NCBI RefSeq assembly: GCF_932294415.1
Contig: NC_065538.1
Coordinates: forward strand, 42,065,843 to 42,129,842
Source of the DNA: Quercus robur
Lineage: Eukaryota; Streptophyta; Magnoliopsida; Fagales; Fagaceae
Length of the DNA stretch: 64,000 nucleotides
Reading direction: 5' to 3'
In this document: positions 8,153 through 64,000 of the stretch, one piece after another
Layout: each line of letters starts with the position of its first letter
Position numbering within the stretch: position 1 is the first letter of the stretch
Made by a program: the position numbers and the translations under genes
The notes under the pieces: generated by a model
What the model was told of the DNA's origin: nothing
The model's database searches: none
The model's input: the letters and a program-made list of their open reading frames with translations, nothing else

Positions 8153-8154
8153 AT

Positions 8155-8166
8155 TGGTATCAGAGC
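8155..8166 (+). promoter_or_regulatory. Primer binding site, tRNA-iMet
   Basis: TGGTATCAGAGC lies two bases after the 5' LTR. It is the standard complement of the 3' end of plant initiator tRNA-Met, used by most Copia elements. Confidence 0.95.
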
Positions 8167-8228
8167 GGGTATACTTGTTGTGGTTTAAATACCTAAGTGT
8201 GATCCTTGACCCCTTGTATTTATTTGCC

Positions 8229-9281
8229 ATGGATTGTGCTTTGTATGCCTCTTTGTACGATTTGGTTGATGATAAATGTAGCATGTCATGTGTTTGTGAA
8301 AATGCATCTATGAGTGTGAATGTTCATGATTGTGATGCTATGTTGCATGAATCATTTGATGTTGTTGATATTCCAAATGGCAAACTCTTAAAGAAAAATG
8401 CTAAGAAGTTTCAAAAGAATTTGAGCAAGTTATTTTGTGAAAAGGATGATTTGATTGCTAAGCTCAATGGATCCAACAAATTGGTTGAGAAATAGAAAAA
8501 ACTTGCTGAAAATTCTCTTGAAAAGCTAAAAGAGTTTGAATGTTTGAATATGGACTTGGATGCTAAACTTGTTTTGTCTTACAAATTTGTTTTGCCTAAC
8601 AAACTTGTTAATGAGTTAAAATGTGAAAATGAATCTCTTAAGATGCATGCCAAGTGTTTGATTGCTGAATCCATTGATAAAAGAGATGATAATATTTGTT
8701 GCAATCATATTGTGGTACCTGATCTTGTGCCTATTGTGTGTTCTACCTCTAAGGACAAATCGGTGTACGTTCCTCCACACAAAAGAAACCAAAGGGTGGA
8801 GAGAAAGGTTGTTAAGTTAAAACCTCCATTTAGGTCTCAACCTAAGGCTTTGGATGGATCTAAGTTTGTTCCAACTTACCACCATTGTGGTGTGATTGGT
8901 CATATAAGGCCTCAATGTCATAAGTTGAAGATGGAACAAAACCATGTTGCTAGATCCTTTCCCAAAAAGCCTAGTGGACCTAAACACATTGTTTGTCACC
9001 ATTGTGGTGCCTTTGGTCATCTAAGACCTCAATGCTATAACTTTTATGTTTTTCAAAACATCAAAAGAAAAGAAAAACTTGAGCTTTTTGGAAATTGTGC
9101 TAAAAAGAGTAAACCGGTTTTGAGTGAAAATAGCATGTTGTTAAAGAAAATGTTTAATGCTCTTAACTCCTTGACTATGTGCATCTCTGGTTTTCATTCT
9201 TCCAACCATTGTCTCACTTCTCTTGAGACACTCATTCCAAACAATCGTTCCATTTGGATGAGGAAGTATCCCTATGGTTGA
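8229..9281 (+). pseudogene. Copia-type gag protein with two zinc knuckles, one in-frame stop
   Basis: Gag would build the particle that packages element RNA. The frame opens at ATG 8229 (MDCALYASLYDLVDD) just past the primer site and runs to a TGA at 9279-9281. One TAG (8493-8495) interrupts it; the frame is the same on both sides, so this is a point nonsense change. The N-terminal part is rich in Lys, Glu and Leu and probably coiled coil. Near the C-terminus is CHHCGAFGHLRPQC (8994-9035), a good C-x2-C-x4-H-x4-C knuckle. A sister copy at about 8876-8917 has Tyr for its first Cys and may not bind zinc. No pol follows. I recognise this gag type from Fagaceae repeats but cannot name a family. 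Confidence 0.85.
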
Positions 9282-12200
9282 GTTTTTGCTATTTTGGTCC
9301 TTGATCTAATTCTTTCGATCTTTGTAGGACCTCTCTTGCATTAAATGTCATATCTTCATGCATTTTTTGCATCTTGCATTTATTTGTATGCATTGTTTTG
9401 TTTTTTATCTTACTTTTATGTTTAAGTTTTGTGTGAGTAAAAAATCCAAAACTACATAAAAAGTGAAAAATTCAAAAAGTTTGATCGTATATGTTTGAGC
9501 ATATATCACATGTAAGTTTTGCCTTGTACCTTTGTACTTATGGCTTTGTGCATTTACGAGCTTAGCTTGTTCTTTATGCACTTATTCCTTTGTGGGAAAA
9601 ATCTTGAAATCTATGTGTGATTGTTGTAAATCGATCTTCAAGCTTGTCATGAATGATTGGTCAATAGTCTTGGTGGTTTTGATACTTGCATAGACTTGTG
9701 CCTACATATCTTCTCGCACTTTTTATTGTTTTTGCTTAAAGAGCTCAACAAATGTAAATCTCAAAAATGAAAAGAGATAATGAGCTGCAAAAGTCGTCGC
9801 ACATACTAGTAGTTGACTAGGAAAAAGGGAAAGCGACTTGTATTGAAAATGTTTAATGCCCAAAAGCCAAAGGCTTGTTCATCAAATTGAAATATCAAAA
9901 AATTTCAGGCATCAATCTCAAAAATGAGATGTATTGCTCAAAATGAATTGTATTGATTCAAAATGATTAAATGATATGAATTGTAAGAAGCCAAATGAAA
10001 AGCTTCAATCTTATGTAATCATTTTCTTATGGGAGGTCATATATGTTCATTTCTATACTTGAGTTAGACCACTTGACTTAGTACGAGTTGTGTATGACTT
10101 AATTGAATTGATCATTGAAGCTTCATTCTTGACTAAGGATTATTCTACATTTGATACGCACACACAACACACATGCCTAATGTTCAATGAATGCCTTACT
10201 CATTTGTTCGATTGTACTTGTTTAAATGTGTTGTGTGTGTGCTCAACTATATATGGTTCAATCCAAAAAGATTTTTGATTATTTTATATGTTTTTGGAAG
10301 TGATTTTTATCACTCTTTGTGTTCTTGTATAGTGCTTACTTTATTTTTCATTGTTTTAAACATGTTCTATGTTGAAAAACAAGTGTCAGAGTTTTTCGCG
10401 ACTCAGTTGGCGACTCGCCAGTCGCGAAACCCCAGTCGCGAGTTCATCCAGAAGTTTTGGCGACTCACTCGCGGCTCACTCGAGACTCGCGAAAATTTTC
10501 GCGACTGTACCTCGAGACTCGCCCAATCGCGAAACGCCTAGAAATAGCTTTTTAAAGGGCTTTTTATGGAAAACTTGTTTTAAACCTCTCTCATCCTCTC
10601 TAAAACCCCTCTTTCAATATTTTTACATCAAAACCCAACCAATTTGAATGGTTTTTCATTCCATTAACATCTCTAAGGTAATTATAAACTCTTTTTATTA
10701 TTTTTGATCCTTAGATTATGTTTTGGAGAGTTTTGTACTCTTGGTTGGGATTTTTATCATAGGGTTGGGAAAACTTAATTTTTATCAAATTTTTTCATGG
10801 GATTGGTTTCTTTTGTTGATTTGCATTGGATGTTGGCCCCTTGTGCAGAAAGAACATGTATTAAGGGTGGATTTCATGATGTTCATGTATTGTTTCACAT
10901 TATTGTTCATAATGTGCATGCTAGGTGTTTGATAAAATGTCTCTTAGGTATTTTCTCGCTTGTTTGGACTTCGATGAGTACCAAACTTTGGGGTTTCTCA
11001 TGTTTCCTCATTAGGAACATGTTTGGTTCATTAGTTGTGTATTTAACACACCTTGCCTCGCATGTGCATTTTTCATGCATTGGTCATGCATTGCATATAG
11101 CCACCTCTTGCACACACCTTGCTACCCTTGTCATGTATTGGTCTATACCTTGTTTCTTCATCCTAGCATATCATGTTTACCTTATACTTTGTAGTACTTT
11201 GTTTTGTCTTAGGATTGAGCTTCATTTTCTCATTCATCTCGCACCCCTCATGCATCATTATCATTGTTCGTTCCTTCATCTCTTGCCCTCTTTTCTCCTT
11301 GACCCTTTGTCTATTCCTGACAAAAAGGGGGAGAGTATACTCTAGAGAGTATACTAGAGAGTTTTCTCATTTCTATATGACTCTTGTGCACATCCTTAGG
11401 TGGAGAAATTCTATTTCTTATGCACATTTGTAGGGGAAGAGATATTCCATAGGGGAGATGTATACACCAAGGGAGAGAAGACATTGTGTTAACTAGAAAA
11501 CTTTGTTCTGTTTGTTTTCTTATTGGCTTTATGGTGCTTTGAGTTATACTTTGTTGTTCTCATTGCATCATGTTTGTGCTTTAGACATGCATATATCCCT
11601 ATGCTATTATGCTTCATTGAATGTGTGCTCAGATGATCATTTGCTTTGCTATGTGATTATTGTAGTCATTTCTATATGACTGTTTTAGTGTATGATCAAG
11701 TTGCTCACATGTTTCACATCATGTTTATTTGATCGCAATTTACTTGTTATATTATACTTGTCCTTTTATTACTTGCTTTACCTTGAGGGTCTAATATGTT
11801 TTGTGCAAGTGTTTCAGGCTACAAGTATATATGTTCCAAGTGCATCACAGCTTCTCATCATTCTGAAGGGGAGAAACTTTAAGCACTTTTAGTTTATATT
11901 GTTTAAGTTTATATTCAGTATTTTGTGGTTTGTACTCATGTTGCTTTTGTAAGCTTTTAGAGTTTATGTTCTTTATTTGTAGGCTTTATGGTCTGTACCA
12001 TGCTTTATGCAGCCTTTTTATACTTTTTTAAATCAATACTTTTAACTAAATGTCATGCATTTTCTTGTTAAGTACTATCACTCTTGTGCCCTTGTAGGAT
12101 TGTTTCTAGATGCATATACTTAGTGTATTGTGCATATACTTAGTGTATTGGGCACAATACTTAGTGTATTGTGCCCTTGTAGGTTGTTTGTTCAAATGTT

Positions 12201-12510
12201 CATTCCAAGTGTGAATGAGCATTGTGGTCACTACCTTGTAGTGATTGCTTTGTTGATCAAGCCATGGTTTTTTTCTTAACTTCATCTTTGCTTGATCACA
12301 TATAGCCTGCTTCATATGCATTTCATGCTTTTTTGCATACAATGATCATGGTGTATTGTTGTGTTTTAGGAGTTTCAAGTTCATATGATTCAAGAACATC
12401 ACAGTTTCTAAAGTTAGGTGTGAGTGAGTTTTGCTCAACTGTTCCCAACTCACATGTTAAGTCTAGAGTCTGTTTTAGGGTTTTGTCACAGAATAGCTAA
12501 AGGGGGAGAT
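9282..12510 (+). other. Non-coding interior of the gag-only element
   Basis: No pol domain in any frame. Notable words are a CG-rich patch with repeated CGCGACTC at about 10388-10540, resembling the LTR patch; an internal purine tract AAAAAGGGGGAGAG at about 11322-11335, followed by two AGTATACT palindromes; and three tandem units around CATATACTTAGTGTATTG at 12111-12171. Short open frames here do not resemble known proteins. Confidence 0.75.
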
Positions 12511-13596
12511 TGTAAGGTTAAATTTAATCAACCATCTTGTTGGCTTCATTCCGTGCCAAATTTGCTTGTATTTCAGCATTTAGTAACCCTGTATTTATGT
12601 GGGATTGTTGTAAGGGTAGTGAGTGAGATAGAGCGTTGAAATGCTCAAGAGTGTGCAAGAAAACAGAGACTCGCGACTTGATCTCGCGGGTGACTCGCGG
12701 CTTCAAGCCGCCAGAAGCAGCACACGTGCCAAGCATGCCAGAAGTTGAAGCGTCATGCTAGCTGGAGCACTGTAGGACAAAATAGGACAATTGGCCATTC
12801 AGATACCTCGCGGCTGGAACTCGCGACTCAGTTAAGCCACAAGGCCAAGCCGCGAACCAGCCCTGTTTTGAAAAACCTGACTCTTCACATTCCATTCTCA
12901 CCCTAGTATAAATACCCCTTATACCCATAAAAGAAAGAGAGCTTCCAGAGAGAATTTTGAGAGAGAAACTCTAGTGTTATACAAGATTGATTCATCCACA
13001 ATCTTCACATAAGAGACTATTCAAATTCCTCAACTTTCTTCCTCTCCATTGTTAAACCCTTGAGAGGTATTTTTACCAAAACCTTTTCTCACCATATCCA
13101 TTACTGTGAGAGGACTGTTTGGTGTTCTGGGAAGCAGTTAGGAAGGAACCAATCTACATTGGTTGATGCTATGGTCAAGTAGCGGAATCCGGGAAGCTAG
13201 AAAAGAAATAGGTTCGGGGCAACCTCGTTGGAGCAAGAAGCTTGGAGGGCTTAAGTATACTGGGTAGATTAGGCTTGGAGGGTCTATTACTGTTCATGTA
13301 TCCCAACTACATTTTCTAATGGATTACTTACCGCTTGGAGGGCGGCGGAGAGGTTTTACGCCGAGAGTTTCGGTTTCCTCTTCGATAGCATATCGTGTGT
13401 TGTCCTTGTGTTTGCATCTTCCTTCCCTTTTCAACTGTGGATGTGATTTATAATTGGCTTAGATTGATTTCCAATTCTGTTTATAACTTATGTTTATTTT
13501 CCGCACACTAGTTGTTTGTCATAAAGCTTGAATTGGTTATTTTGTATTTGGGGGTCTAAACGTTCAAGGGTGGTTTATACACTATTTGAACTTTCA
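12511..13596 (+). repeat. 3' LTR of the gag-only element
   Basis: Starts TGTAAGGTT after the purine tract, ends CTTTCA, followed by the target duplication GTGTG. CG words are better preserved here (ACTCGCGACTTGATCTCGCG) than in the 5' copy, where several have become TG or CA, the pattern expected of methylated CpG decay. Confidence 0.95.
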
Positions 13597-48841: not shown

Positions 48842-49667
48842 TAGTGACTGGTTCTTTCTTCACAAGATCATCAAGCTTTTGGGCCACTATTTGTAAGGCT
48901 GTTTGGTCCTTAGGCTTGAGGCTAGCTTGTCTGGTTGTGGGGAGCTTGACTAAGGGTTTTTCTAGAGTTTGGATTGGTTTGCTAGGGTTTCCTAGCTGAA
49001 GGAGAACCTTATTGTCAATCCTATCTTCTATCTTATCAAGCTGTTTACCAATGACTCCTAAGCACTGGTTGGTATAGTTGTTTTGCTCTATCACCTTCTT
49101 GACAACCTTTTCTTCTGGGGTTGATGCACACTTAAAGGGAGAGGCAATTACATCACTACCACGGTGGTTAAAGAGTAGGGCTTCTTGGGGAGGATGGCTA
49201 AACCTAACAATTTCTGATTTGCTAGAACTTGGTGCATCCTTTTTAGGGAGTAACTTCCAGTTGGTTTTGGAAATGACACAAGAATTTTTATGCCATTTGG
49301 AATGTTTCTCAAAGTATTCGAAGAAAGGATAATCACTTGATACCTCTTTCATGAATAGTTTCCATTTCTCCAAAACTTCTTCTTTCTGTTCTTTGGTATG
49401 GTTGGCTCTATAGGCTTCTCTCTTGGCTCTGTTTCTTTCAGAGTTGAAATCCTTTTCAAGAGCATCCATATCAGGGGTGAACTCTTTTGTCAACATTAAG
49501 AGCTGATAGTCATATTCAGTTTCTTGTTGAATAGGATTTCTCATATCAGTTCCTGATGGTGAAGGAGGCTTAAGACTGTCTTGACTAGTGCTGTCTTCTT
49601 CTTGATCAGCAATTGAGTCTTGCTTGGCTGTGTAACAAGGGGTACTAACCTGGAACAAGGGGTACAC
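48842..49667 (-). pseudogene. B3 capsid N-terminal region, truncated
   Basis: A highly charged segment (DFNSERNRAKREAYRANHT) followed by the B-type spacer. It nearly matches B1 63944-63240 and then ends at the host junction after about 275 codons. It is in a different frame from the movement protein because of a deletion of about 80 nt near 49655. No capsid core remains. Confidence 0.85.
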
Positions 49668-50635
49668 TGAGATGCAGGTCTATCTGTAAGTTGGATAGTT
49701 GGCTGCCTAAAGGGTTGGCATAGATCTATGGATCTAGGCCTTGGTTCCTGGTACAGATCTACCGAAGATCTGGGCCTGGGTTCATCATATTCTAAGGGTG
49801 ACCTAAACCTAGATTGGTCAAAGCTAAGTCTAACCGTTCCATCGGCTAGCTGTTGGACAAAATCTAGATCTGGGTTCCAAACGGGTTTTTGGATCTGTAG
49901 ATGATGGTTCTCATTATCTATAGTCCAATGTGCTGGGAATGTGACTTCAAACCATTTTAGGGTTCTGGGTACCTGAACTGTGGATCTAATGTCTGGAGTT
50001 TGGATAAGGGTAGTTTCACCAGCCTTTCTCTTAAGCTGTCTGGTTCCATGTAACAAGAAAGTTCCATGGGTTTTGATGTTGAGGGTGAGGACCTTCAAGA
50101 TGTGAGGGTCATCAAGTGCGACGGTGAGGTTGGGGAAACAGTTTAAATGAACTGGTCCGCCGCTCAAACTGGATTCCATGGTACCTAGAAGGCTGTCGTC
50201 AAATCTAAGATGATGGGTGTCTCTAAGGGCCATAAGGATTGAGTTGTTCAACCCTTCTCTGATCAAAGGTTTTACTCCAACTTGGACTAAACCGAGGTGA
50301 AGGAATTTATGATCATTGTCCCTGTGAGCTTTCACGGCTGCAAGGGATAACAAGTAGCATGTTTCATACTCTTTGTTTATGCTGTAAACTTGTTCTATAG
50401 TCCTAACATGGTAGTCTGTCTTGAAAGTCTTTTTCAAGGACCACGATGATGACTTGTAGACCTGGTTTGTGGGTACCTTTGGTATGTTCCAATCTCCTAA
50501 CTTCTGATCTAGATCTGAGAGCTGGTACGACTCCGAGTTTACCATTCCATCATTTAAAGGGATCTCAGGGAGGGTAGTACTGCTAGATCTAATGCTGGTG
50601 GATGAATCACTCCTTCTAAACATCCTATTCATCAT
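49541..50635 (-). pseudogene. B3 movement protein (30K superfamily), deletion-bearing
   Basis: ATG 50635 opens a frame with SSSWSLKKTFKTDYHVRTI, AVKAHRDNDHKFLHLGLVQV and GLNNSILMALRD, typical of caulimovirid movement proteins that open plasmodesmata. Compared with the A copy it lacks 21 residues (63 nt, in frame) at about 50036. Past about 49655 a deletion of roughly 80 nt moves the frame, so the last 40 residues are not viral sequence in frame. Confidence 0.85.
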
Positions 50636-51309
50636 TTTGGATTAAAAACTAAAGAAATCAATTACAACCTAGACTACCTTTATCTTCCAATTTCTGGATC
50701 TAACCTTAGATCTGAAACAGGGTGTTCAAAGATATTGATGCCTTCTGTGAATACTGTCACTACTTACTGCTGCTTTACCCTATTGTTGATGCACACGAAC
50801 CTTTCCGCTCATACCTTTAACGCTCTCCTGTCTACACGGGAATTACTGTTTGGCTCAGGTTCAAAACTCAACCTCGGTACTTTAGACTTACTAGGCAACA
50901 GGTAGACACAGAACCGGATTGACACTTCTCGATAGTACACATCTGTAACAAACTCTGGGTTAAAAACAAAGATAAGAAGAAGAAGATAACTGGGAAGCAA
51001 AGGATTAGCTCAAACAGATAATCACAAGATAATAAACAGAACGAATGAATGGGAGACTCAGCCTACCACCAAAAGAAAGAACAGTAAACACTGACTAAGA
51101 TGAAATAATAGATGAAGAATGTAATGTATGGGAGTGGAAGTGCTATCAGAAAATAGATGTAAAACAAAATAATATTTGTTAGAGATAACATACTCAAAAT
51201 AATGTATAACACAAAATAATGGATAACTATGGCGGTATAACCAGCCAACTTGATTGATCTTCAAAATAATTACAGTAACTTACAACAGTTACTATCGGCC
51301 ACAAACTTG
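50636..51309 (-). other. B3 leader between primer site and movement protein
   Basis: Non-coding leader almost identical to 57768-58442 of the A unit. Such leaders carry small upstream ORFs in caulimovirids; a few short ones occur here but none is clearly meaningful. Confidence 0.7.
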
Positions 51310-51321
51310 GCTCTGATACCA
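51310..51321 (-). promoter_or_regulatory. Viral primer binding site, tRNA-iMet
   Basis: Minus strand TGGTATCAGAGC (continuing CCA) complements the initiator tRNA-Met 3' end. In Caulimoviridae this primes minus-strand DNA and marks genome position 1. It marks the A/B3 unit border. Confidence 0.95.
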
Positions 51322-51564
51322 AATGGGGGTAAGCTACAGACAATGGGGGAAAGGGAGGGTGCCGTTCTGGGCAGCCTGGGTGCGGAAGCATAAATAGGTT
51401 ACAAATGTAGTTCTGGTACAAGTGTAAACTGGGGAGGAGAAGAAAGCCATTTTGGTTTACAAAGTATTTCTATTACAAAGTAAAACTGGGGCTCTGAAGT
51501 AGTGTGACTAAGCCTTGTGAAAGGTGAGTCCTACTAAGCCTACCGAAGACTGAAGCAAAGGGTT

Positions 51565-51574
51565 CCTTTTATAG
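51565..51574 (-). promoter_or_regulatory. Viral promoter TATA box (A to B3)
   Basis: Minus-strand CTATAAAAGG, 244 bases before the primer site. Upstream, inverted repeats AGTGAC-G-GTCACT (51712-51724) and CACTGTT/AACAGTG (51721-51738) may bind activators. Confidence 0.75.
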
Positions 51575-51933
51575 CTGGAGGAAGCCTTGGATCCATTCAG
51601 GAGACTGCGAAAATCACGGATGGTAAACTGCTTTTACTCTTGGGTGAATTTCTTTTCAGCTGAAAGGAAATAGTAACCTCAATGATTTTGTCAGGGTGCT
51701 GTTGAGTGAATAGTGACGGTCACTGTTTATGAACAGTGTTCTGTCCCCTTGCTTTTCTGAATAGTAACTCTGCACAGTGTTCTGGTACTGTGTAGTGAAT
51801 AATAGCTTGTCGGCAACTCTGCTGGTACGGGTACTGTTCCTAAAATAGTAACCGGGTTGCAAAAGATGTTCTTAAGCTATTCTGGGGCTTCTGGAGCTGT
51901 TCTGGAGCATCCGGGAGCTAGTTCTGGAAATGA

Positions 51934-53237
51934 CTAATCGTTGTCAAAGTTGTAACCATCATTAGGATCCTGTGAGTCTTGGAATGGGTTAATTGGAACA
52001 CGATTACAAGAAGCTTTTGAAGAGGCAGGAGAGTTCTTTTCTTCTGACTCTAACTGTTCTGATTGGAGAAGCAATTGCCGGGCAAGATCCTTGAGCTCTT
52101 TGCTAGATTTTCCAGCAATTTGGACGGAATCTAGGCTGGACTGTGATCTTGTGCAATGAGCAATGGTTCTTTGTACTGGAAGAGGAAAGTCATCATGTAA
52201 TTTGGAGATAATGTTAGTAGGTCTGAATTTATCCCACCATTTCACAAAGAATTCCCTATCAAGTAGATTCTGGTTGATAACATAATTCCATATGCTAATC
52301 CAGTGAATCTTGTACTTAATTGTCATGTGCAAAATTGCTGGAAATTGGGAAGAATGTCTGTCTACCTGGAATCTGGAGCTGAAATACCTTAATGCGTCCT
52401 GTAGAGGTTCTGGGAAGTTCTGTGGAATTGATCCAAACATTTCCCACCACTTGAGAAACCATGAAGGTATCTGGCCTTTGAATTTTTTGTCAAACTGAAT
52501 GAACCATGAGTGATCATAGTTCTCATTCTGGAAGAATAAAACTTTCTCGAAGGCATCCATATAATCATAATAATTATACAGGGGTTCTGATCCCTTGAGT
52601 ACGGTAAGTGTTCTAAGTGAGGAGGGGTGTCCCCAATCTTTGCAACTTACAAAACTTTGAATTATGAATTTATGGTACAAAACCTTTGAAGGGTTAATCC
52701 TGTCTCTAATGTCTTCTATTTTGGCAGACTTTTCTTGGGTGAGAATGCCTTTATAGAATTTGATGTTTTTTTCTGGGCTTTTAGGAAGGAAATGCCATTC
52801 ATAGGGCAGTACTTCCATTGCTAATGCCAACAGATCTGTTATGTGAACCAAATGTGGCTCGATATAAGAGATGTGTTGGACAAAATGTTTTCTGATGTAA
52901 GAGGCTCTTCCTGTTCTTGGAGGAAGGGTGAAAGAAGGTTGCTTAGGCACAATCGGACCAAAGGGTTCTTCAACTGTGTATGGAGAAGTTGCTTTGGGAG
53001 GTGGTGTGACTAAAGCAGAACTATAACCATGTTGTCCTTAGGGCCTTTGGTAATTTGGTTTTGGATCGTGGATACCAAATAACGATTAGCAACAACGAAT
53101 GGTGACATAGGTAAGGTCTTTGGTGAACTGGAAAAAGGTACTAAAGGGCCAGGGTTCTGTGCCTGACTGGTACTCCTAGTGGTTTGCTGTTTAGGCAACC
53201 TAGGTGGTTGAGGTTGTACGGGTTTCTTCCCAGACAT
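51934..53237 (-). pseudogene. A-unit ORF2, unknown function, one frameshift
   Basis: ATG 53237 (MSGKKPVQPQPPRLPKQQ) overlaps the end of the RNase H frame by about 37 nt. After about 65 codons the frame shifts near 53040, then stays open to 51934. The long part is rich in aromatic residues (WWEMFGSIPQNF, HWISIWNYV) and ends in an acidic tail (DPNDGYNFDND). No known domain recognised. Some florendoviruses have such a second ORF. It may be a transactivator-like or particle-associated protein, but that is a guess. Confidence 0.75.
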
Positions 53238-55437
53238 TTTGATCTGGATTCTGCAAAAATTCACAGGTTAGGAAGTCAGGGATACTGTTCTGAGTTCCGG
53301 CTATGAATTCTATGTCAAAATCAAAAACTGAAAGGATGGCTTGCCAACGTGCAAAAATCTGTTTTGATGCAATGTTTTGAACATCTTTTTCTAAAACATG
53401 TTTTGCAGATTTACAATCAATCCTGAATAAAAACTTTTGATTTAAAAGATCACTTTGAAATTTTGAAATGCATAGTACTATAGATAAAATCTCTTTTTTA
53501 ATAGTACTATAATTAAGCTGAGTGGGAGTCCAAATTCCTGAATGAAAACAGACAATTTGTTCAGGGGAAGTGGGACTAACATGCTGAAGGAGAATGCCAC
53601 CATAACCAATGTTAGAGGCATCTGTCTGGATGACCTTGAAGGAATTTTCTGAGGGGATTCCTAGACAAGGGAGTGTCTTGACACATTTTTTGATTTGTTG
53701 AACAACCGATGTATGAATGGGTGTCCAGGAAGGAGGATTGGTTCGAAGTCTATCAAAAAGAGGCTTGCATTGTTGCCTAAGATTTTGATAGAAATCCGAA
53801 ATGTAATTGAGGGATCCTAAAAACCTTTGAAGTTGGGTCTTTTCTAGGATCTCATCTGGAAACTTATCAGCAAACTGAATAGCTCTATCTATGGGTTTGA
53901 TGACACCATGTTTTATATCAAAACCTAAGAATCGAACACTAGTTTGGAAAAGTTTGATCTTTGGAGCTGAAACAACAAGACCATTACGTTTGATGGTTTG
54001 GAAGAATGTTCTAAGATGCTTCCAATGTTGAGTCAAAGATTCTAAGAAGATGAGTACATCATCAATGTACACAATGGTATGGCTGGAGAATGGATTAAAA
54101 ATCTCATTCATGATGTTTTGGAATTCAGAAGGTGCATTCTTAAGACCAAAGGGCATTACATTCTATTCGTAATGGCCAAAGGGTGTGGTGAAGGCTGTTT
54201 TGTACCTGTCAGACTCTCTGATTTGTATCTACCAAAAACCACTCTTCATGTTGAATTTACTGAAAACCACTGCTTTACTAAGCCTGTTAACTAAGTCTCT
54301 TTTGTCGGGGATAGGGTACCTTATCCATTCTAAGACTTTGTTAAGGGGCTTGTAGTTGATGACAAGTCTAGGGACACCTCTTTCTATCTCAGCGTTTTTC
54401 TGGACATAAAAGGCTGGACAAGACCATGGTGACCTAGAGTTTCTGATAATTCCTTTCTTAAGAAGATCCTCTATTTCTGCCTTGCAAGTATCCATGAGTT
54501 CTTGGCTTATTTGGATAGGTCTAGCTTTGGTAGGGATGTTCTTTTCATGGAAATCTTTGACATAAGGTAGAGCAACTTCGTGCTGTTTCCTATGCCAAAA
54601 GGCTGTGGGAAGATCAGAGCAGACCTCTTGCTTAAGTTTTTCTTCAAACTTTCTAATGTCTGTTTGGTAACTCTTGCAAGCTAATTGCTCATCAATCCTT
54701 TTGTAACTTAGTTCATTACCAAGGTACATAAGGTGTTGGGTTTTGGCTTTGATAAGGTTAAGGGTCTTGGCTTTGATAAGGTTAAGGGTCTTGGAGATAG
54801 AAACCTCTTGGAGACTATTGATGTCTTTAGGTCCTAGGCTCCTAAGAAACTTGAACTTGATTGGTTGGCCAAAAGGATGGGTAGTGATTCCTTCACTATC
54901 CGTGATGAAAGGATTCAACAGACACATGAATGGGTTTCCTAAGATGACCCTATCTGTCATATTCTTGACAAGAACAAATGTGGTTTTAAAGCATGCATTG
55001 TCTTGGCAAACATGTGCTTTTGGGTTTTTGAATTCAATCTGCATTTTTCCTCCACTTGCGGAAGTTAACCTTTCTTTGGTTTTCCGGAAGTATTTAGAGG
55101 GGATGATTCCATCTTGAATGCAGTTGAGATTAGCGCCTGAATCTATTAAGGCTACTACCTCAAATTCAAAATCTCTGCTTATGACAATCCTGACTTTGGA
55201 GTGACATTTCTGGAAGTTAATTCTACTGATGGTTTGCAAGAATGATCCATTGGTTGGTTCTGGCTCCATTTCTACAGTAGGGTTAACTGTTTCATCTATT
55301 TCTTCATCAAAAGGGTTCTGTAATGAGGTTCCTTCCTCATTGCCTTGATTAGAAGTATATTCTAGATGCTTGACTCTTTGGTCCATGAGACTGTGGTCAA
55401 CCCTAAGGATGGTTAGTTCCTGCTTAAGGTTTCTCAC
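53200..55437 (-). pseudogene. A-unit protease, reverse transcriptase and RNase H
   Basis: One frame throughout. The aspartic protease has DSGANLNC near its start. Reverse transcriptase shows ARPIQISQELMDTCK, SRSPWSCPAFYV, VINYKPLNK and the catalytic YIDD at about 54058-54069, preceded by MPFGLKNAPSEFQ. RNase H shows QTDASNIGYGGIL and DCKSAKHVLEKD. Stops occur at 54229-54231 and near 54165, inside the polymerase palm, so no active enzyme could be made. These enzymes copy pregenomic RNA to DNA. Upstream, the zinc knuckle region shares this frame. Confidence 0.93.
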
Positions 55438-56100
55438 TTTTGTTTTGGTATCCTTAATCTCTTTCTAGAGATCTTGGACGGTTATCTATTTCTTGGATTT
55501 GGTAAACCTATTGTAGATTTTCTCCAAATCAACTTTGGGTTCCTAAAACCTAGGTTTGGATGTACTGGCTTCCTTAACTAGGGTTTTGTGGAACTCACTG
55601 AGTCTTTGAGATTTCTCAACTGGGTCTTGGATCTGTTCTATGAGATCTAAGAGGAGTTCTTCTTGCTCAGAAAGAACACTAACAGTGTTGTTTCTGCAAC
55701 AACTATCTGTCCATGGTATGACTTCATCTGGACTGCTAGAGGTGCTTGTTGAAGCTCTAGGAGAGGATGAAGACTAGTAAATCTGACAGATTTCTCGGCC
55801 AATAGAACTATTGGGGGACTCACTTTCTGGGTGGTCAAGTTCTAAGATTTTGGAGATATCTTCACTGATTAGGGAGTTGGTAGGGGATTTGCCTGGACAT
55901 TCTTTCTTAAAATGTCCTCTTTTTCCACAATTAAAGCATTTTCCTTTTGCTTTAGGTTTGAGGTTTTCTATGGAATTGGTGTTTCCTTTCTTATAGAAAT
56001 CATCGTTTTTGAACTTTTGTTTTCTATACTGTCTGGAAACTGTTCTCTTCCTATGGTAATCTTTAGAGGTTTCTTTTCCTTTATATTTGGATATCCGTTT
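55438..56100 (-). pseudogene. A-unit zinc knuckle and linker region
   Basis: Zinc knuckle CFNCGKRGHFKKEC at about 55897-55938, a basic run before it and an acidic/Ser-rich linker after it, in the same frame as the protease. Stops interrupt the linker near 55774, 55542, 55487 and at 55465-55467; the last is shared with B1 (61629-61631). The zinc knuckle belongs to the capsid C-terminus in caulimovirids and binds RNA. Confidence 0.82.
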
Positions 56101-56543
56101 TCTGGGAAGGATTCGGGTGTATCTTGAAGCTGGTCATCTAGTTGGTTTTTCTCCTTTTCATCTTCTGAGGAGGGTCTACTAGAACCGCTAGAGGATATGT
56201 GAGCTTCTAAGACATTTACCTTTGGTGAGGGAGGGACTAGTTTCTCTACCTCTTGTGATGGAAGTTTGGGTTTGGTACAAGACTTTTTGTGCCATTTGAA
56301 ATGTTTCTCAAAGTATTCAAAGAAAGGATAATCACTTGATACCTCTTTCATGAATAGTTTCCATTTCTCCAAAACTTCTTCTTTTTGTTCTCTGGTATGG
56401 TTGGCTCTATAGGCTTCTCTTTTGGCTCTGTTTCTTTCAGAGTTGAAATCGTTTTCAAGAGCGTCCATATTAGGGGTGAACTCTTTTCTTAACACTAAGA
56501 GCTGATAGTCATATTCAGTTTCTTGCTTAATAGGATTTCTCAT
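55968..56543 (-). pseudogene. A-unit capsid N-terminal region without capsid core
   Basis: Shares the charged N-terminal segment with B1 (DFNSERNRAKREAYRAN) but then carries a shorter, different spacer (SCTKPKLPSQEVEKLVPP) and a Ser-rich segment homologous to B1. It then leaves the frame around 56110, just where B1 has about 800 bp of capsid core (62316-63110). Basic sequence of the capsid C-terminus resumes in another frame. The core is therefore missing, by deletion or by design. Confidence 0.8.
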
Positions 56544-57041
56544 ATCAGTTCCTGATGGTGAAGGAGGCTTAAGACTGTCTTGACTAGTGCTATCTTTTTC
56601 TTGATCAGCAACTAAGTCTTGCTTGGCTGTGTAACAAGGGGTACTAACCTGGGAATGGTCTTTTACACCTTGAAACTGTGGACCTAAGTCTCTTCTAGAT
56701 GTGGGAAAGGGAGCTCGTGCTCTAAACGAACTACACTGGGATGCAGGTCTATCTCTAAGGTGGATAGTTGGCTGCCTAAAGGGTTGGCGTAGATCTATGG
56801 ATCTAGACCTTGGTTCCTGGTACAGATCTACCGAAGATCTGGGCCTAGGTTCATCATATTCTAAGGGTAACCTAAACCTAGATTGGTCAAAACTAAGTCT
56901 AACCGTTTCATCGGCTAGCTGTTGGACAAAATCTAGATCTGGGTTCCTAACGGGTTTTTGGATTTGTAGATGATGGTTCTCATTATCTATAGTCCAATGT
57001 GCTGGGAATGTGACTTCAGACCATTTCAGGGTTCTAGGTAC

Positions 57042-57767
57042 CTAAACTATGGATCTAATGTCTGGAGTTTGGATAAGGGTGGTTTCACCAGCCTTTCTCT
57101 TATCCACTGCCTGGATAGACATGTTTGTTCTCATGCACTTATAATATACTCTATATATAAGGGCTAGCTGCCTGGCTCCATGTAACAAGAAAGTTCCATG
57201 GGTTTTGATGTTGGGGGTGAGGACCTTCAAGATGTGAAGGTCGTCTAGTGCGACTGTGAGATTGGGGAAACAGTTGAAATGAACTGGTCTGCCGCTCAAA
57301 CTGGATTTCATGGTACCTAGAAGGCTGTCGTCAAATCTAAGATGACGGGTGTCTTTAAGGGCCATAAGGATTGAGTTGTTCAACCCTTCTCTGATCAAAA
57401 GTTTCACTCCAACTTGGACTAAACCGAGGTGAAGGAATTTATGATCATTGTCCCTATGAGCTTTCACAGCTGCAGGGGATAACAAGTAGCATGTTTCATA
57501 CTCCTTGTTTATGCTGTAAACTTGTTTTATAGTCCTAACATGGTAGTGTGTGTTGAAAGTCTTTTTCAAGGACCACGATGATGACTTATAGACCTGGTTT
57601 ATGGGTACCTTTGGTATGTTCCAATCTCCTAACTTCTGATCTAGATCTGAGAGCTGGTACGACTCCGAGTTTACCATTCCATCATTTAAAGGGATCTCAA
57701 GGAGGGTAGTACTGCTAGATCTAATGCTGGTGGATGAATCACTCCTTCTAAACATCCTCTTCATCAT
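57042..57767 (-). pseudogene. A-unit movement protein
   Basis: ATG 57767 opens the 30K-type movement protein seen in B3, here with the full central segment ALIYRVYYKCMRTNMSIQAV. A TAG at 57044-57042 stops the frame after 241 codons; similarity to B3 continues in the same frame beyond it to the capsid N-terminal region at 56543. Confidence 0.88.
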
Positions 57768-58442
57768 TCTGGATTAAAAACTTAAGAAATCAATTACAAC
57801 CTAGACTACCTTTATCTTCCAATTTCTAGATCTAACATTAGATCTGAAACAGGGTGCTCAAAGATACTGATGCCTTCTGTGAATACTATCACTACTTACT
57901 GTTGCTTTTCCCTATTGTTGACGCACACGAACCTTTCCGCTCATACCCTCAACGCTCTCCTGGCTACACGGGAATTACTATTTGGCTCAGGTTCAAAACC
58001 CAACCTCGGTACTTTAGACTTACTGGGCAACCGGTAGACACAGAATCGGACTAACACTTCTCAATAGTACACATCTGTAACAAACTTTGGGTTAAAAACA
58101 AAGATAAGAAGAAGAAGATAACCGGGAAGCAAAGGATTAGCTCAAACAGATAATCACAAGATAATAAACAGAAAGAATGAATGGGAGGCTCAGCCTACCA
58201 CCAAAAGAAAGAACAGTAAACACTGACTAAGATGAAATAATAGATGAAGAATGTAATGTATGGGAGTGGAAGTGCTATCAGAAAATAGATGTAAAACAAA
58301 ATAATGTTTGTTAGAGATAACATACTCAAAATAATGTATAACCACAAAATAATGGATAACTATGGCGGTATAACCAGCCAACTTGATTGATCTTCAAAAT
58401 AATTACAGTAACTTACAACACTTACTATCGGCCACAAACTTG

Positions 58443-58454
58443 GCTCTGATACCA
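58443..58454 (-). promoter_or_regulatory. Viral primer binding site, tRNA-iMet (start of A unit)
   Basis: Minus-strand TGGTATCAGAGC, identical to 51310-51321, at the border between B1 and A. Confidence 0.95.
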
Positions 58455-58697
58455 AATGGGGGTAAGCTACAGACAATGGGGGAGAGGGAGGATGCCGTTC
58501 TGGGCAGCCTGGGTGCGGAAGCATAAATAGGTTACAAATGTAGTTCTGGTACAAGTGTAAACTGGGGAGGAGAAGAGAGCCATTTTGGTTTACAAAGTAT
58601 TTCTATTACAAAGTAAAACTGGGGCTCTGAGGTAGTGTGACTAAGCCTTGTGAAAGGTGAGTCCTACTAAGCCTGCCGAAGACTGAAGCAAAGGGTT

Positions 58698-58707
58698 CCT
58701 TTTATAG
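58698..58707 (-). promoter_or_regulatory. Viral TATA box, inner copy
   Basis: Minus-strand CTATAAAAGG in the inner copy of the duplication, 244 bases before the primer site. Confidence 0.7.
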
Positions 58708-58942
58708 CAGGAGGAAGCCAATGGGGGAGAGGGAGGCTGCCGTTCTGGGCAGCCTGGGTGCGGAAGCATAAATAGGTTACAAATGTAGTTCTGGTACAAG
58801 TGTAAATTGGGGAGGAGAAGAGAGCCATTTTGGTTTACAAAGTATTTCTATTACAAAGTAAAACTGGGGCTCTGAGGTAGTGTGACTAAGCCTTGTGAAA
58901 GGTGAGTCCTACTAAGCCTGCTGAAGACTGAAGCAAAGGGTT

Positions 58943-58952
58943 CCTTTTATAG
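58943..58952 (-). promoter_or_regulatory. Viral TATA box, outer copy
   Basis: Same CTATAAAAGG word in the outer copy. The palindrome CACTGTTCATGAACAGTG lies about 150 bp upstream at 59099-59116. Confidence 0.75.
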
Positions 58953-59098
58953 CTGGAGGAAGCCTTGGATTCGTTCAGGAGACTGCTGAAATCACGGAAG
59001 GTAAACTGCTTTTACTCTTGGGTGAATTCCTTTTTAGCCGAAAGTAAATAGTAACGTCAATGATTCTGTCAGGGTACTGTTGAGTGAACAGTAACGGT

Positions 59099-59116
59099 CA
59101 CTGTTCATGAACAGTG
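59099..59116. promoter_or_regulatory. Perfect 18-bp palindrome in the viral promoter
   Basis: CACTGTTCATGAACAGTG is its own reverse complement. The A/B3 promoter has the same site with one change in the centre (51721-51738). Conservation and position suggest a dimeric activator site. Confidence 0.55.
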
Positions 59117-59359
59117 TTCTGTCCCCTTACTTTTCTGAATAGTAACTCTGCAGAGTGTTCTGGTACTGTGTAGTGAATAGTACTCTATCGGCAGCTTTGC
59201 TGGTGCGGGTACTGTTCCTGGAATAGTAGCCGGGTTGCAAAGGTGGTTCTTGAGCTGTTCTGGGGCTTTTGGAGCTATTCTGGAGCATCCGGGAGCTGCA
59301 CTAGAATTTTTGTAGAGGCAGGAGAGTTCTTTTTCTTCTGACTCTTAGCTTCTTGATCT

Positions 59360-60680
59360 CTAATCAGTATCATGGCCAGATGGGTATCCATCATAGGGAT
59401 CCCATGGAGGATCATAATCACAATTATGCTCATGATACTTAGAATACTAATTACAAAATCCAAAGTACAGGATAGGTTCATAATCTGCCTGCTGTGTAAC
59501 TAATTGCCTGGGCTCAATGTAATCAATTCTTTTGGTATGGAGGGCTGTGGAGTATGGCCTGGTGGTGAATACTGAAATCCTACCAGTATTTCCAACAAAA
59601 TGGTAATTCTGCCATAGCTCGCTGGTGACATCTATAATCTCATTATTGAAGTAACCTCTCCAGTAATCTGCAAGAGCATCGAGGTCTTCATAATAGAGAT
59701 AAGAGTCTCCTTCATACCAGGGGCCATTATGGGTGTACCCATTGATGAATACAAGATGGTGCGCAGGTTGGACAATCATCCAATTGTTTCTGTTCCATTG
59801 TGGGAGGGTACTCCAGCATTTGATGGAGACAAAAGGATTATTGATTTTTGAGACAACCTGTCAGACGATCTGAGGGAACTGGTTGATCTAGTCATGGCTT
59901 GTTAGCTTGATGAAACCATATTCAAACATCTGTGAAAGCCAGCTTGGATCTTCTTCAACGAACCAATCTTCATAATTGATTATTAGGCCGGGGAAGGGAT
60001 GTTTCTTCTCATAGACCCTGTGGCTGCTTCCAAAATATTCTTCCCAGGTTGACTGGATGAAGGCATTGTCAGTATCATCTGAGTCTTCACCATAGACTGG
60101 GAAATGGGTGGTGACAAATTCTGAAATGCTTGAACCATAGGTTACATGATTCAGACATAGCCTTGCTTCCCAAGATACGTACTTGTATATCGGTAGGTAA
60201 GTTGGCAACAACACTTCTTAGCTGGTTTTGAGTCTTATGACTTAACCTAGCATAATCGGTGCCCATAATAGTCGTTTTATCCATTGAATGAATATCCTCT
60301 TTGCCAAAGAGTTGACTAAAAGAAATCCGACTTACTTCAATTTCTGCCTCAAGGTTTACTAGGTGTATTTCTAGTGCTCTGAGGGTTTTTTGAAAAAGGA
60401 GGTTGTTGCTTTGGGTAAAGGCTCTCTGAAGGTTATCAAGGATAATTTTGATGGAGGGTGGAAGGTCTGTGTACACTCCATTCTTAAATTGGAAATTCCT
60501 GGATAAAACTTCATGTAAGGTGATGGCCATATTACCACTGGAAAATATTATTCTAAGTGGAACATGCTCTTGAAGGGATGTTGCCTCCTTGGGTTCTGAT
60601 CCAGAAGAAGCACCTTCATGCCTTTGATAAGGAAAACCCTGGACAGGAGCTTTTCCTTTGTTCCTACTTGAAGAAGCCAT
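59360..60680 (-). pseudogene. B1 ORF2, unknown function, joined in frame to the protease ORF
   Basis: ATG 60680 (MASSSRNKGKAPVQGF) starts a protein unlike A-unit ORF2 except for an acidic, Tyr/Gly-rich end (DPYDGYPSGHDTD). The upstream protease frame reads straight into it with no stop. A frameshift near 60190 and stops at 59888-59890, near 59862 and at 59447-59449 break it. It is rich in Trp and Tyr (SWEARLCLNHV, NYEDWFVEEDPSW, GPWYEGDSYLYYEDLD). No domain recognised; plausible roles include particle or transactivator functions, unproven. Confidence 0.7.
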
Positions 60681-61433
60681 TTTCCACTTACTAGTGGGGC
60701 AAGTAAAATAGGATATTTGCTTTTCTTCCTGCCATGTATTAACAAAATGGTTATTTTTGAAAACATTTTTGTTAAAATCATGAGATGTTAAGGAGCAAAT
60801 ACTTTTATGCTGAATGCATGAAATGAGATATGATGAGGATTTATGAAGCTGTTTGAGGTTCAAAGAATCATCATTTATGAAGGCAGAGTGATCAAGGTTC
60901 TTTTCTTGATTTGGATTTTCTGAAGGAATTTTGGCATTGATGAGGTTAAGGGTCTTAGAGATAGAGACTTCTTGGAGACTATTGATGTCTTTAGGCTCGG
61001 GGCTCTTAAGAAACTTAAACTTGACTGGTTGGCCAAAAGGATGGGTAGTGATTCCTTCACTATCCGTGATGAAAGGATACAATAGACACATGAATGGGTT
61101 CCCTAAGATGACCCTATCTGTCATATTCTTGACAAGAACAAAGGTGGTTTTGAAACACGCATTGTTTTGGCAAACATGTGCTTTTGGGATTTTAAATTCA
61201 ATCTGCATTTTTCCTCCACTTGCGGAAGTTAACCTTTCTTTGGTTTTCCGGAAGTATTTAGAGGGAATGATTCCTTCTTGAATGCAGTTGAGATCAGCGC
61301 CTGAATCTATTAAGGCTACTACCTCAAATTCAAAATCTCTGTTGATGACAATCCTGACTTTGGAGTGCCATTTCTGGAAGTTAATTCTACTGATGGTTTG
61401 CAAGAACGATCCATTGGTTGGTTCTGGCTCCAT
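60681..61433 (-). pseudogene. B1 aspartic protease and B-specific linker
   Basis: The retropepsin-like region carries DSGADLNC (catalytic triad at about 61307-61299) and VILGNPFMCLLYPF, closely matching A. At the codons after TLNLINAK the A unit goes on to reverse transcriptase, whereas here about 80 codons of unrelated linker (SENPNQEKNLDHSAF) lead to ORF2. The frame is open throughout. The protease would cut the polyprotein. Confidence 0.82.
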
Positions 61434-62315
61434 ATCTGCAGTAGGGTTAACTGTTTCATCTATTTCTTCATCAGAAGGGTTCTGTAATGAGGTTCCTTCC
61501 TCATTGCCTTGATGAGAAACGTTTTCTAACTATTTGACTCTCTGGTCCATGAGACTATGATCAACCCTAAGGATGGTTAATTCTTGCTTAAGGTTTCTCA
61601 CTTCTAATTTGGTATCCTTAATCTCTTTCTAGAGATCTTGGACAGTTATCTCTTTCTTGGATTTGGTAAACCTATTGTAGATTTTTTTCAAATCAACTTT
61701 GGGTTCCTGAATCTTAGGTTTGGATGTACTGGCTTCCTTAACTAGGGTTTTGTGGAACTCACTAAGTCTTTGAGCTTTCTTAACTGGGTCTTCGATCTGT
61801 TCTATGAGATCTAAGAGCAGCTCTTCTTGCTTAGAAAGAACACTGATAGTCTTGTTTTTGCAACAACTATCTTGGCAAGCTAGGATTTCATCTGTGTCAC
61901 TAGAGGAGCTAGAAGATACTCTAGAGGTTTCAGAGGATGTTCTATATAGCTGGTATTTCTCTCGAGTGCTGGACTCACTTTTAGAGTGGTCAAGTTCTAA
62001 GAGTTTGAAGATTTCTTCCTTACTGGTTTGGTCACTAATAAGGGTGTTGATAAGGGTTTTGGCCTTAGCTTCACACTCTTTCTGTAAATGACCTTTCTTT
62101 CCACACTTAAAACATTTTCCTGATGCTTTAGGTATGAATTTTCCTGTGGACTTGGATTTGCCTTTCTTATAGAAATCATCAGTCTTGAACTTCTGTTTTC
62201 TATAATGCTTGGAGGTTGTTTTCTTCCTATGGGATTTCTCAGAGGGTTCTCCTCCTTTGTGTTTGGATTTTCTTTTGGAGATGATTAAAGGTAAGCCATA
62301 TTGGGTACAGAAATT
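61434..62315 (-). pseudogene. B1 zinc knuckle and linker
   Basis: Basic run then zinc knuckle CFKCGKKGHLQKEC at about 62072-62113, followed by an acidic, Ser-rich linker and a Lys/Glu-rich helix-forming part. Same frame as capsid and protease. Stops are the TAG at 61629-61631, shared with A, and a TAG near 61531. Confidence 0.8.
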
Positions 62316-64000
62316 TCATATTTCGTACTTGGCTTTGCTCTTGTTGGATTGACTCTGGATTTTGAGATCTCTACACATCTTCATTCCTTCATTTCGGATT
62401 GTGCTTGAGATGTCTCCATCGGTTAGATTATCATAATCTACGACACCTAAAGGGCTAGCAAGAGTTTCTTTGACCTTCTGTCCAAACAATGTGGGTAAGC
62501 CATTGATAAACTTCTCCTTCCAAAATGGAGAGTTACAATCGCTTCTATGCGTGACACGGGTGGTGAATACATCTTCATACCACCGGTATTCTCCAAGGTT
62601 CTTACATCTAAGGTTACTTAACTGGTCGTAAATCCTAGATGTGATATTGCTGGGTTTTCCTACGAAGTGTTTCATGATCGTATAGATCAGGGTATTGACT
62701 CCTTCGGGAACACCTCATCCTATGCGTTCGTCAAAGATGGGGTTCTCATCCGCATCTTTTTGGACAGCATGTTTGATGTCTTCCTTGGATGTTTCTGTTA
62801 GACAGTTGTTCCACCAAACTAACAATTTTCCTGTGAATCCTAAAACTATGAGCTCTACAACCTCAGTATTCTGGATGCCATCATTTAGATAATTTTTGGC
62901 TACCATGGTTATATGTTAGATCTTGTTTAGGATTTCTTGTTTGGATAAACCATCTATGTTCCATTCATAGAGTTTACCACTAGATACTGTGAACTGGGTG
63001 GACCTTTCCTTAAACTGGAGGTCAGGGGGTGTAGGTCTGGGATACCAATTCTTGGTAAGGCTGGTTTGGTTTACCTTGGGTTGGTAAAGCTTGTTTACCT
63101 GTAATCCTCGAAATTGGTCTTCTAGGTGTTCTATCTCCTTTTCAGTTTCTGAGGAGGTTCTGCTAGAACTGCTAGAGGCTGTATGGGCATGTAAGGTTTC
63201 TAACCTTGGGTCTCTACTGGTTGAGGTGGGATTTGGTGAAGGGGTGACTGGTTCCTTCTTTACAAGATCATCAAGCTTTTGGGCCACTATTTGTAAGGCT
63301 GTTTGGTCCTTAGGCTTGAGGCTAGCTTGTCTGGTTGTAGGGAGCTTGACTAAGGGTTTTTCTAGAGTTTGGATTGGTTTGCTAGGGTTTCCTGGCTGAA
63401 GGAGAACCTTATTGTCAATCCTATCTTCTATCCTATTAAGCTGTTTACCAATGACTCCTAAGCACTGGTTGGTATAGTTGTTTTGCTCCATCACCTTCTT
63501 GACAACCTTTTCTTCTGGGGTTGTTGCACACTTAAAGGGAGAGGCAATTACATCACTACCACGGTGGTTAAAGAGTAGGGCTTCTTGGGGAGGATGGCTA
63601 GACCTAACAATTTCTGGTTTGCTAGAACTTGGTGCATCCTTTTTGGGGAGTAACTTCCAGTTGGTTTTGGAAATGACACAAGACTTTTTATGCCATTTGA
63701 AATGTTTCTCAAAGTATTCAAAGAAAGGATAATCACTTGATACCTCTTTCATGAATAGTTTCCATTTCTCCAAAACTTCTTCTTTTTGTTCTCTGGTATG
63801 GTTGGCTCTATAGGCTTCTCTTTTGGCTCTGTTTCTTTCAGAGTTGAAATCCTTTTCAAGAGCATCCATATCAGGGGTGAACTCTTTCCTTAACACTAAG
63901 AGCTGATAGTCATATTCAGTTTCTTGCTGAATAGGATTTCTCATATCAGTTCCTGATGGTGAATGAGGCTTAAGACTGTCTTGACTAGTGCTGTCTTCTT
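62316..64000 (-). pseudogene. B1 capsid protein region
   Basis: The N-terminal charged segment (63944-63240) leads to a Ser-rich spacer, then the core (62906-62316) with LLVWWNNCL, LSNLRCKNLGEYRWY and FWKEKFINGLP, resembling caulimovirid capsid or gag-like folds. Stops at 62916-62918, 62715-62717 and 62316-62318 leave the frame otherwise unchanged. It forms the virion shell in intact relatives. The A unit lacks this core. The left part of the polyprotein (movement protein) lies outside the window. Confidence 0.82.

Follow-up and report, generated by a model that had tools for sequence, protein, structure and literature searches.

We describe an array of endogenous viral DNA in a 64,000-nucleotide (nt) stretch of the Quercus robur genome (G000:C5:42065843-42129842, here called the window), together with its relatives in the same 785.7 Mb assembly, which was used for all own-genome searches. 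The array holds two kinds of unit, A and B, which divide a set of viral genes between them. A encodes a movement protein, a zinc knuckle without a capsid core, a protease, reverse transcriptase (RT), RNase H and a further open reading frame (ORF), ORF2. B encodes a movement protein, a full capsid and a protease, and an extension that we call EXT replaces RT, RNase H and ORF2. We believe, with a probability of roughly 0.78, that a bipartite plant pararetrovirus of the florendovirus type had A and B as its two components and left these copies integrated in the chromosomes. The florendovirus label comes from comparing gene content with published descriptions, and we infer that A and B were mutually dependent.

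Self-BLAST divides the array into three related units, all in a single orientation on the minus strand: B1 (64000-59298), A (59297-51920) and B3 (51919-48844). They stand head to tail and are joined via a common region with leader, primer site and movement protein. The features are:

59298..64000, minus strand: B1 unit body, with DUF7588, capsid N-terminal part, capsid core, zinc knuckle, protease and EXT (Pfam, ORFs, tblastn)
62316..62714, minus strand: caulimovirid capsid core of B1 (PF22909, E 1.2e-10)
61629..62315, minus strand: CCHC zinc knuckle region of B1 (zf-CCHC, E 7.9e-5)
60087..61529, minus strand: aspartic protease of B1, continuing in frame into EXT1 (RVP, E 8.3e-7)
about 60090-60722, minus strand: EXT1, the first part of EXT in B1, in the same ORF as the protease
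59447..60217, minus strand: second and third parts of EXT in B1 (59888-60217 and 59447-59860; ORFs, in other frames in this copy)
56277..59297, minus strand: common region before A, with promoter/leader, primer site, movement protein and DUF7588 (BLAST against 49278-51919)
58471..58964, minus strand: tandem duplication of about 245 nt in the leader region of A (self-BLAST)
58454-58443 and 51321-51310, minus strand: primer-site motif TGGTATCAGAGC (exact matches)
57042..57773, minus strand: movement protein ORF of the A unit (PF01107, E 1.9e-13)
51920..56276, minus strand: A unit body, with zinc knuckle, protease, RT, RNase H and ORF2, capsid core deleted (Pfam, tblastn)
55774..56133, minus strand: zinc knuckle stretch of A (alignment with B1), off-frame relative to the upstream ORF in the window copy only
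54229..55464, minus strand: protease and N-terminal RT of A (RVP, E 2e-6)
53200..54162, minus strand: C-terminal part of RT and RNase H of A (RVT_1, 4.9e-21; RNase H, 1.2e-22)
51934..53037, minus strand: ORF2 of A (367 codons open in the window copy)
49278..51919, minus strand: common region before B3, with promoter/leader, primer site, movement protein and DUF7588 (BLAST, Pfam, motif scan)
48844..49277, minus strand: B-type body of B3 (the viral match ends at 48844)

A first-pass annotation, made from the sequence alone, had given B1 a capsid core, zinc knuckle and protease without RT or RNase H, and A the RT and RNase H without a capsid core. Pfam and tblastn confirmed both descriptions: the Pfam scan of B1 contained no RVT or RNase H match, and a tblastn search with the window's own capsid core detected it in B1 only. 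Pfam also reported DUF7588 in both units, and in B1 a partial DUF7746 at E 0.002, which is under the curated cut-off. The zinc knuckle of A was left out of the Pfam scan and was identified by tblastn and by alignment with its B1 counterpart. The annotation was also right to see a movement protein in both A and B3, the B3 copy having a 63-nt deletion. Its claim that the units share promoter, leader and primer site holds for A and B3; the 5' part of B1 lies beyond the window edge, and the leader of B1, equivalent to 65185-65864, falls outside the window.

B3 is truncated, and it continues past the point where A and B diverge into B-type sequence: over a 757-nt match (48844-49600 against 63244-64000) it is 97% identical to B1. 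About 2.9 kb past the right window end there is an EXT match of 92% on the plus strand (G000:C5:42132700-42133302), so the viral array does not stop at the window edge, and its continuation includes a B-type piece in inverted orientation.

The evidence that A is a class, and not a single damaged copy, comes from 20 ORF2 loci that we fetched from the genome. A capsid core was found in none of the 20. Protease and the RT N-terminus are kept before ORF2 in 16, and 13 of these also retain DUF7588 and the zinc region. In all 13 the frame is uninterrupted across the capsid-deletion junction (one has a shift within DUF7588) and the junction peptide is similar. ORF2 lies in a different frame from RNase H in all 20 loci, and in many copies it is open for about 440-446 codons, or about 51 kDa by arithmetic. 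ORF2 had no match in Pfam or among PDB sequences, apart from one CCHC and two RT fusions. We found 124 protein relatives of ORF2 and at least 111 places in the same genome. Among the 120 relatives listed, the named ones are from Lithocarpus, Castanea dentata (12 of the 120) and Quercus suber, with more distant ones from Prunus and Rubus; most matches are unnamed. Alignment A2 of ORF2 holds 61 of the 120.

B also recurs. EXT lies downstream of the capsid in 9 of 10 sampled virus-1 copies (virus 1 being the window's virus) and in 2 of 2 copies of a second virus, virus 2, and in 11 of 12 sampled capsid-bearing copies its second and third parts follow EXT1 in order. There was no convincing Pfam match to EXT in a scan that did not include the middle piece on its own, and against PDB sequences there was one chance-level match only (E 0.82). 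A query of residues 215-480 of the B1 protease ORF returned 73 protein relatives (66 of them in alignment A5); the named ones are all from Lithocarpus, none of the 73 is named as Castanea, and most are unnamed. A Pfam scan of 74 EXT proteins found RVT_1 in none. By direct comparison, however, four (P0151, P0183, P0184 and P0185) show a piece of RT at the N-terminus, ahead of EXT, the match being weak in P0151 and P0185; we read this piece as a trace of polymerase deletion.

We also considered whether EXT is a plain copy of ORF2 and rejected this. Local alignment found nothing significant beyond 24 residues at the very end, where both enter the common region, and hhalign gave a probability of 0.1-0.2%. 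As far as these sequence comparisons can detect, EXT of B has no similarity to ORF2 of A. Two proteins that join EXT-like and ORF2-like parts (P0111 and P0169) are probably gene-model fusions.

To count the forms across the genome, we scored the best candidates for each domain: 150 of 546 for the capsid core, 125 of 8,406 for RT/RNase H and 111 of 495 for ORF2, so that all counts are lower bounds; for EXT, 150 of 217 matches were listed. The identities form two groups, separated at 62% for the capsid and 78% for RT, with virus 2 being 58-61% identical to the window in the capsid and 73-77% in RT. EXT is about 49-59% identical between the two viruses. We classed each place by position. A capsid with EXT 1.9-2.6 kb downstream was called B, and a capsid with RT or ORF2 at single-molecule spacing was called M, for a single-molecule form.

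The 84 virus-1 capsid places comprised 46 B, 10 M, 28 left unassigned and none with both. Among the 66 virus-2 capsid places there were 37 B, no M and 29 left unassigned. Seen from the polymerase, a capsid stood directly upstream at 7 of 58 virus-1 RT places (counted as M) and at 0 of 67 virus-2 places, and none of the 125 scored RT places, from either virus, had EXT nearby among the EXT matches listed. Virus 2 thus has the same A/B split, with no M among the scored places. The longest open frames were 1,970 codons at capsid places (2,210 in one tandem) and 1,650 at RT places. RT and RNase H were present in all eight M candidates that we sampled, with RNase H broken in one, and the RT proteins of M and A share 83-94% identity. 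The proposed genus Florendovirus encodes movement protein, capsid, protease, RT and RNase H as a single polyprotein. Several A copies (for example L011 and L014) read from movement protein to RNase H in one frame without the capsid; of the M copies, pieces were read. Scans of IMG/VR with the RT and capsid pieces found no relatives.

The genes of both components are under purifying selection. As median pairwise ratios of nonsynonymous to synonymous substitution (dN/dS), the A copies gave 0.21 for the zinc region (n=14), 0.11 for protease (17), 0.08/0.07 for RT (17/19) and 0.12 for RNase H (18), at median dS of 0.27-0.47. The B copies gave 0.07 for the capsid (n=8), 0.22 for the zinc region (7) and 0.15 for protease (8), at dS of 0.32-0.42. 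The movement protein had 0.14 (n=13), ORF2 0.10 (n=22), EXT1 0.33 (n=10) and EXT3 0.17 (n=12). For the M capsid the ratio was 0.10 (n=8). We regard this as our strongest argument: genomes without a capsid core and genomes without a polymerase each diverged with their proteins kept, which suggests that each missing function was supplied in trans.

The two copies of the common region in the window (59297-56277 and 51919-49278) match at 92.6-96.1% identity over the BLAST pieces; per 100 nt the figure is mostly 92-99%, dropping to 83-89% in places. The primer-site motif that they share is presumably of the initiator tRNA-Met type. The roughly 245-nt tandem duplication in the leader of A is not present in that of B3. 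Outside the common region, A and B1 have only 77% DNA identity in the zinc region (dS 0.57) and 93.5% in protease; set against the common region, this indicates that A and B1 are a mosaic, and not a single sequence with a gap. A search for leader DNA in the genome gave 42 matches, of which 10 precede an A body, 9 a B body and 1 probably a B body, with 22 unassigned. A long leader of 757-768 nt, with 78-79% identity to the query, stands before 2 A and 3 B bodies, and a shorter form before 8 A and 6 B bodies. Both leader variants are therefore common to the two components.

A and B are also found next to each other more often than expected. We counted same-strand neighbours of capsid and RT at unit-like spacing and found 7 pairs for virus 1 (including the window pair), 14 for virus 2 and none that crossed the two viruses. 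Random placement gave a mean of 0.01-0.03 pairs and at most 1 in 500 trials. Of the virus-2 tandems, 13 of 14 are at 5.5-5.7 kb upstream or 8.7-8.9 kb downstream. The repeats at G000:C3 about 25901800-25912300, where ORF2 (four pieces) and RT pieces recur at 3,347-base steps, are a local tandem amplification of viral DNA.

Trees of the separate domains bear on where A came from. When RT of the A and M copies is placed in one tree, two M copies diverge before all A (support 82 and 87); another two take the same position but unsupported, one falls inside A, and the remaining M copies take no resolved position. The zinc-protease tree puts the A copies in a single clade (83) that excludes M and B. 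Together these trees suggest that A probably had a single origin from an M-like virus. M and B are intermixed in the capsid tree, which suggests sequence exchange between them or a late separation of their capsids. Lithocarpus proteins of the B type form a group with one virus-2 capsid (73), adjoining Castanea dentata proteins (100 jointly), three of which have capsid and RT together.

Several points weigh against or weaken the reading of A and B as a bipartite virus. There is a stop within the junction stretch in 4 of the 13 A copies and in 13 of 22 ORF2 pieces, and one of the ten sampled virus-1 capsid copies (L039) has no downstream domain. The similarity of A and B1 in protease implies that body parts have recombined too. 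The dN/dS pairs are not independent, and pieces under 75-90% coverage were dropped. The B set includes one virus-2 copy and the EXT sets two, and the first-run set for movement protein, zinc region and protease includes B pieces of the window (a later run splits the types). Most internal nodes of the RT and capsid trees are poorly supported, and several M fall among A or B. In the census only the best candidates were scored, the identity limits between the two viruses were chosen after the gap was seen, and the unassigned capsid places amount to 28 of the 84 for virus 1 and 29 of the 66 for virus 2. The eight M candidates were picked by capsid-ORF2 spacing, so that an intervening RT was to be expected; M copies do exist, and M is a possible helper. 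The random placement used a guessed length for contig C41 and ignored clustering of insertions.

The existence of M is the reason to consider that A and B were satellite-like or defective genomes which depended on M, and not on each other. Such a helper would have had capsid, RT and RNase H (8/8 sampled candidates) in the same genome, and the mixing of M and B capsids in the tree would fit it. We nevertheless think this unlikely. M is rarer, at 10 of 84 virus-1 capsid places and none of 66 for virus 2, and more divergent, with a median dS of 0.44-0.71 against 0.27-0.47 among A. A-B tandems are frequent, and the full gene sets of A and B are under purifying selection, which pure passengers would not need. 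The first-pass annotation had held that a single-molecule ancestor with capsid and polymerase, of which A and B were private deletions, would refute two components. The M places are such capsid-plus-polymerase copies, but A and B are not private deletions.

Multiplication inside the host genome, either retrotransposon-like or by segmental duplication, after one or a few integrations of deleted viral DNA would account for the high copy numbers and for exact local amplifications such as the 3,347-base steps. It would not require a movement protein or a capsid, yet both are under purifying selection, and the copies are spread over 12 contigs at dS of 0.3-0.5; we give this explanation very little weight. 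Still less can be said for the window's A unit being a private deletion of a normal single-molecule virus, as the first-pass annotation had allowed because the capsid loss in A coincides with a frame change. That frame change is real. However, the same deletion is in frame in all 13 other A copies that keep the junction, so the shift is a private defect of the window copy, and the divergence between A and B1 is 23% for the zinc region, against about 4-5% for leader and movement protein. With no capsid core at any of the 20 ORF2 loci, we consider the private deletion refuted. The annotation's other suggestion, that A and B are co-replicating components, is supported by the recurrence of both types as multi-copy classes in their own genome, the shared deletion, the selection and the tandems; mutual dependence would be a further step.

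If A and B were the two components of a bipartite virus, they would have existed as two circles, each with a common region from which it was transcribed. The RT of A would copy both RNAs inside particles made of B's capsid. The common region would be kept alike by template switching or recombination within it, which would also yield mixed A/B concatemers that could then be captured in chromosomes. M would be the likely source of A, by one in-frame deletion of the capsid. EXT is common to two deeply split viruses and was seen beside the capsid only, never beside a complete polymerase. It is conceivable, although we hold it only tentatively and think it more doubtful than the bipartite reading itself, that B represents an old and distinct lineage carrying a gene of its own; it would have come first, dependent on a single-molecule virus after losing RT, and the helper would later have lost its capsid in frame and become A. 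In that case M, A and B in one genome would be a fossil record of a reverse-transcribing virus turning bipartite.

The kind of genome is known, since the split into A and B has been described in grape, rice, sorghum and sugar beet. Geering et al. 2014 (PMC4241990) proposed bipartite florendoviruses with components A and B in the first three of these, and a review (PMC10377300) adds sugar beet and, in the portion available to us, treats multipartite genomes as otherwise not known in the order. Divided genomes among reverse-transcribing viruses thus rest, as far as the available portions of these two sources go, on proposals from a few endogenous florendoviruses; those cases aside, the first-pass annotation was right to call the layout unheard of in this group. 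As in the florendoviruses of PMC4241990, so far as its available text describes them, A has RT, RNase H, ORF2 and a deleted capsid domain, B has movement protein, capsid and protease and no RT, the intergenic region (there near-identical) and movement protein are shared, insertions are mixed and both components are multi-copy. Published pairs have more than 90% identity between A and B in the intergenic region and more than 87% in the movement protein; our A and B copies have 96.0% in the leader, 89% in the promoter part and 95.5% (nt) in the movement protein. The published ORF2 is 45-58 kDa, in another frame and without known homologues, as is ours. The domain set of Caulimoviridae, whose movement protein is of the 30K type, is present, split over A and B (PF01107, PF22909, zf-CCHC, RVP/Peptidase_A3, RVT_1, RT_RNaseH). 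The family also has an initiator tRNA-Met primer site in its leader, and the motif in both window leaders fits this.

There are differences as well. In the available part of PMC4241990 the C-terminal extension of B is homologous to ORF2 in Vitis, with more divergent ones in rice and sorghum; the extension here appears not to be. The Fagaceae host, the M relatives in the same genome and the measurement of selection also set our case apart from those described there. According to the portion of PMC10377300 available, Vitis vinifera A virus is the non-segmented parental form of Vitis vinifera B virus, a situation resembling M beside A and B. In contrast to that pair, as described there, our M shares a genome with two divided viruses, and its RT protein matches that of A at 83-94% identity. 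Recent RTs of Castanea dentata have been placed in Florendovirus-01 (PMC9794742, available part). Single-molecule florendovirus-like polyproteins of Carya, Prunus and Castanea have, in some gene models, the order capsid, protease, RT and a related ORF2; they differ in joining capsid and polymerase in one gene model and in having no EXT.

Divided genomes are common among RNA plant viruses. Bipartite begomoviruses have two DNA components with a common region, as A and B do here, although they are unrelated, replicating by rolling circle and having no reverse transcriptase.

Our literature search, with most subscription journals and preprints outside its coverage, found no report of a florendovirus in Quercus or of a caulimovirid in an oak genome; for endogenous pararetroviruses in Quercus it gave only endornavirus work, judged by title. 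New in this case are the host, the presence of M relatives alongside A and B, an EXT in which no similarity to ORF2 could be detected, and a second divided virus. With single-molecule, polymerase-only and capsid-only forms in one genome, measurements can be made of selection, the deletion junction, leader variants and the co-insertion of units from the same virus, which makes the mutual dependence of the parts and the order of genome splitting testable from genome sequence.

Elsewhere in the window, 7067-13596 looks like a long terminal repeat (LTR) retrotransposon: two 1,086-nt direct repeats on the plus strand (7067-8152 and 12511-13596) are 94.8% identical, and the primer-site motif is found at 8155. 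A tandem repeat with steps of about 81 bases occupies 281-772 and 2130-2420, with diverged copies further on.

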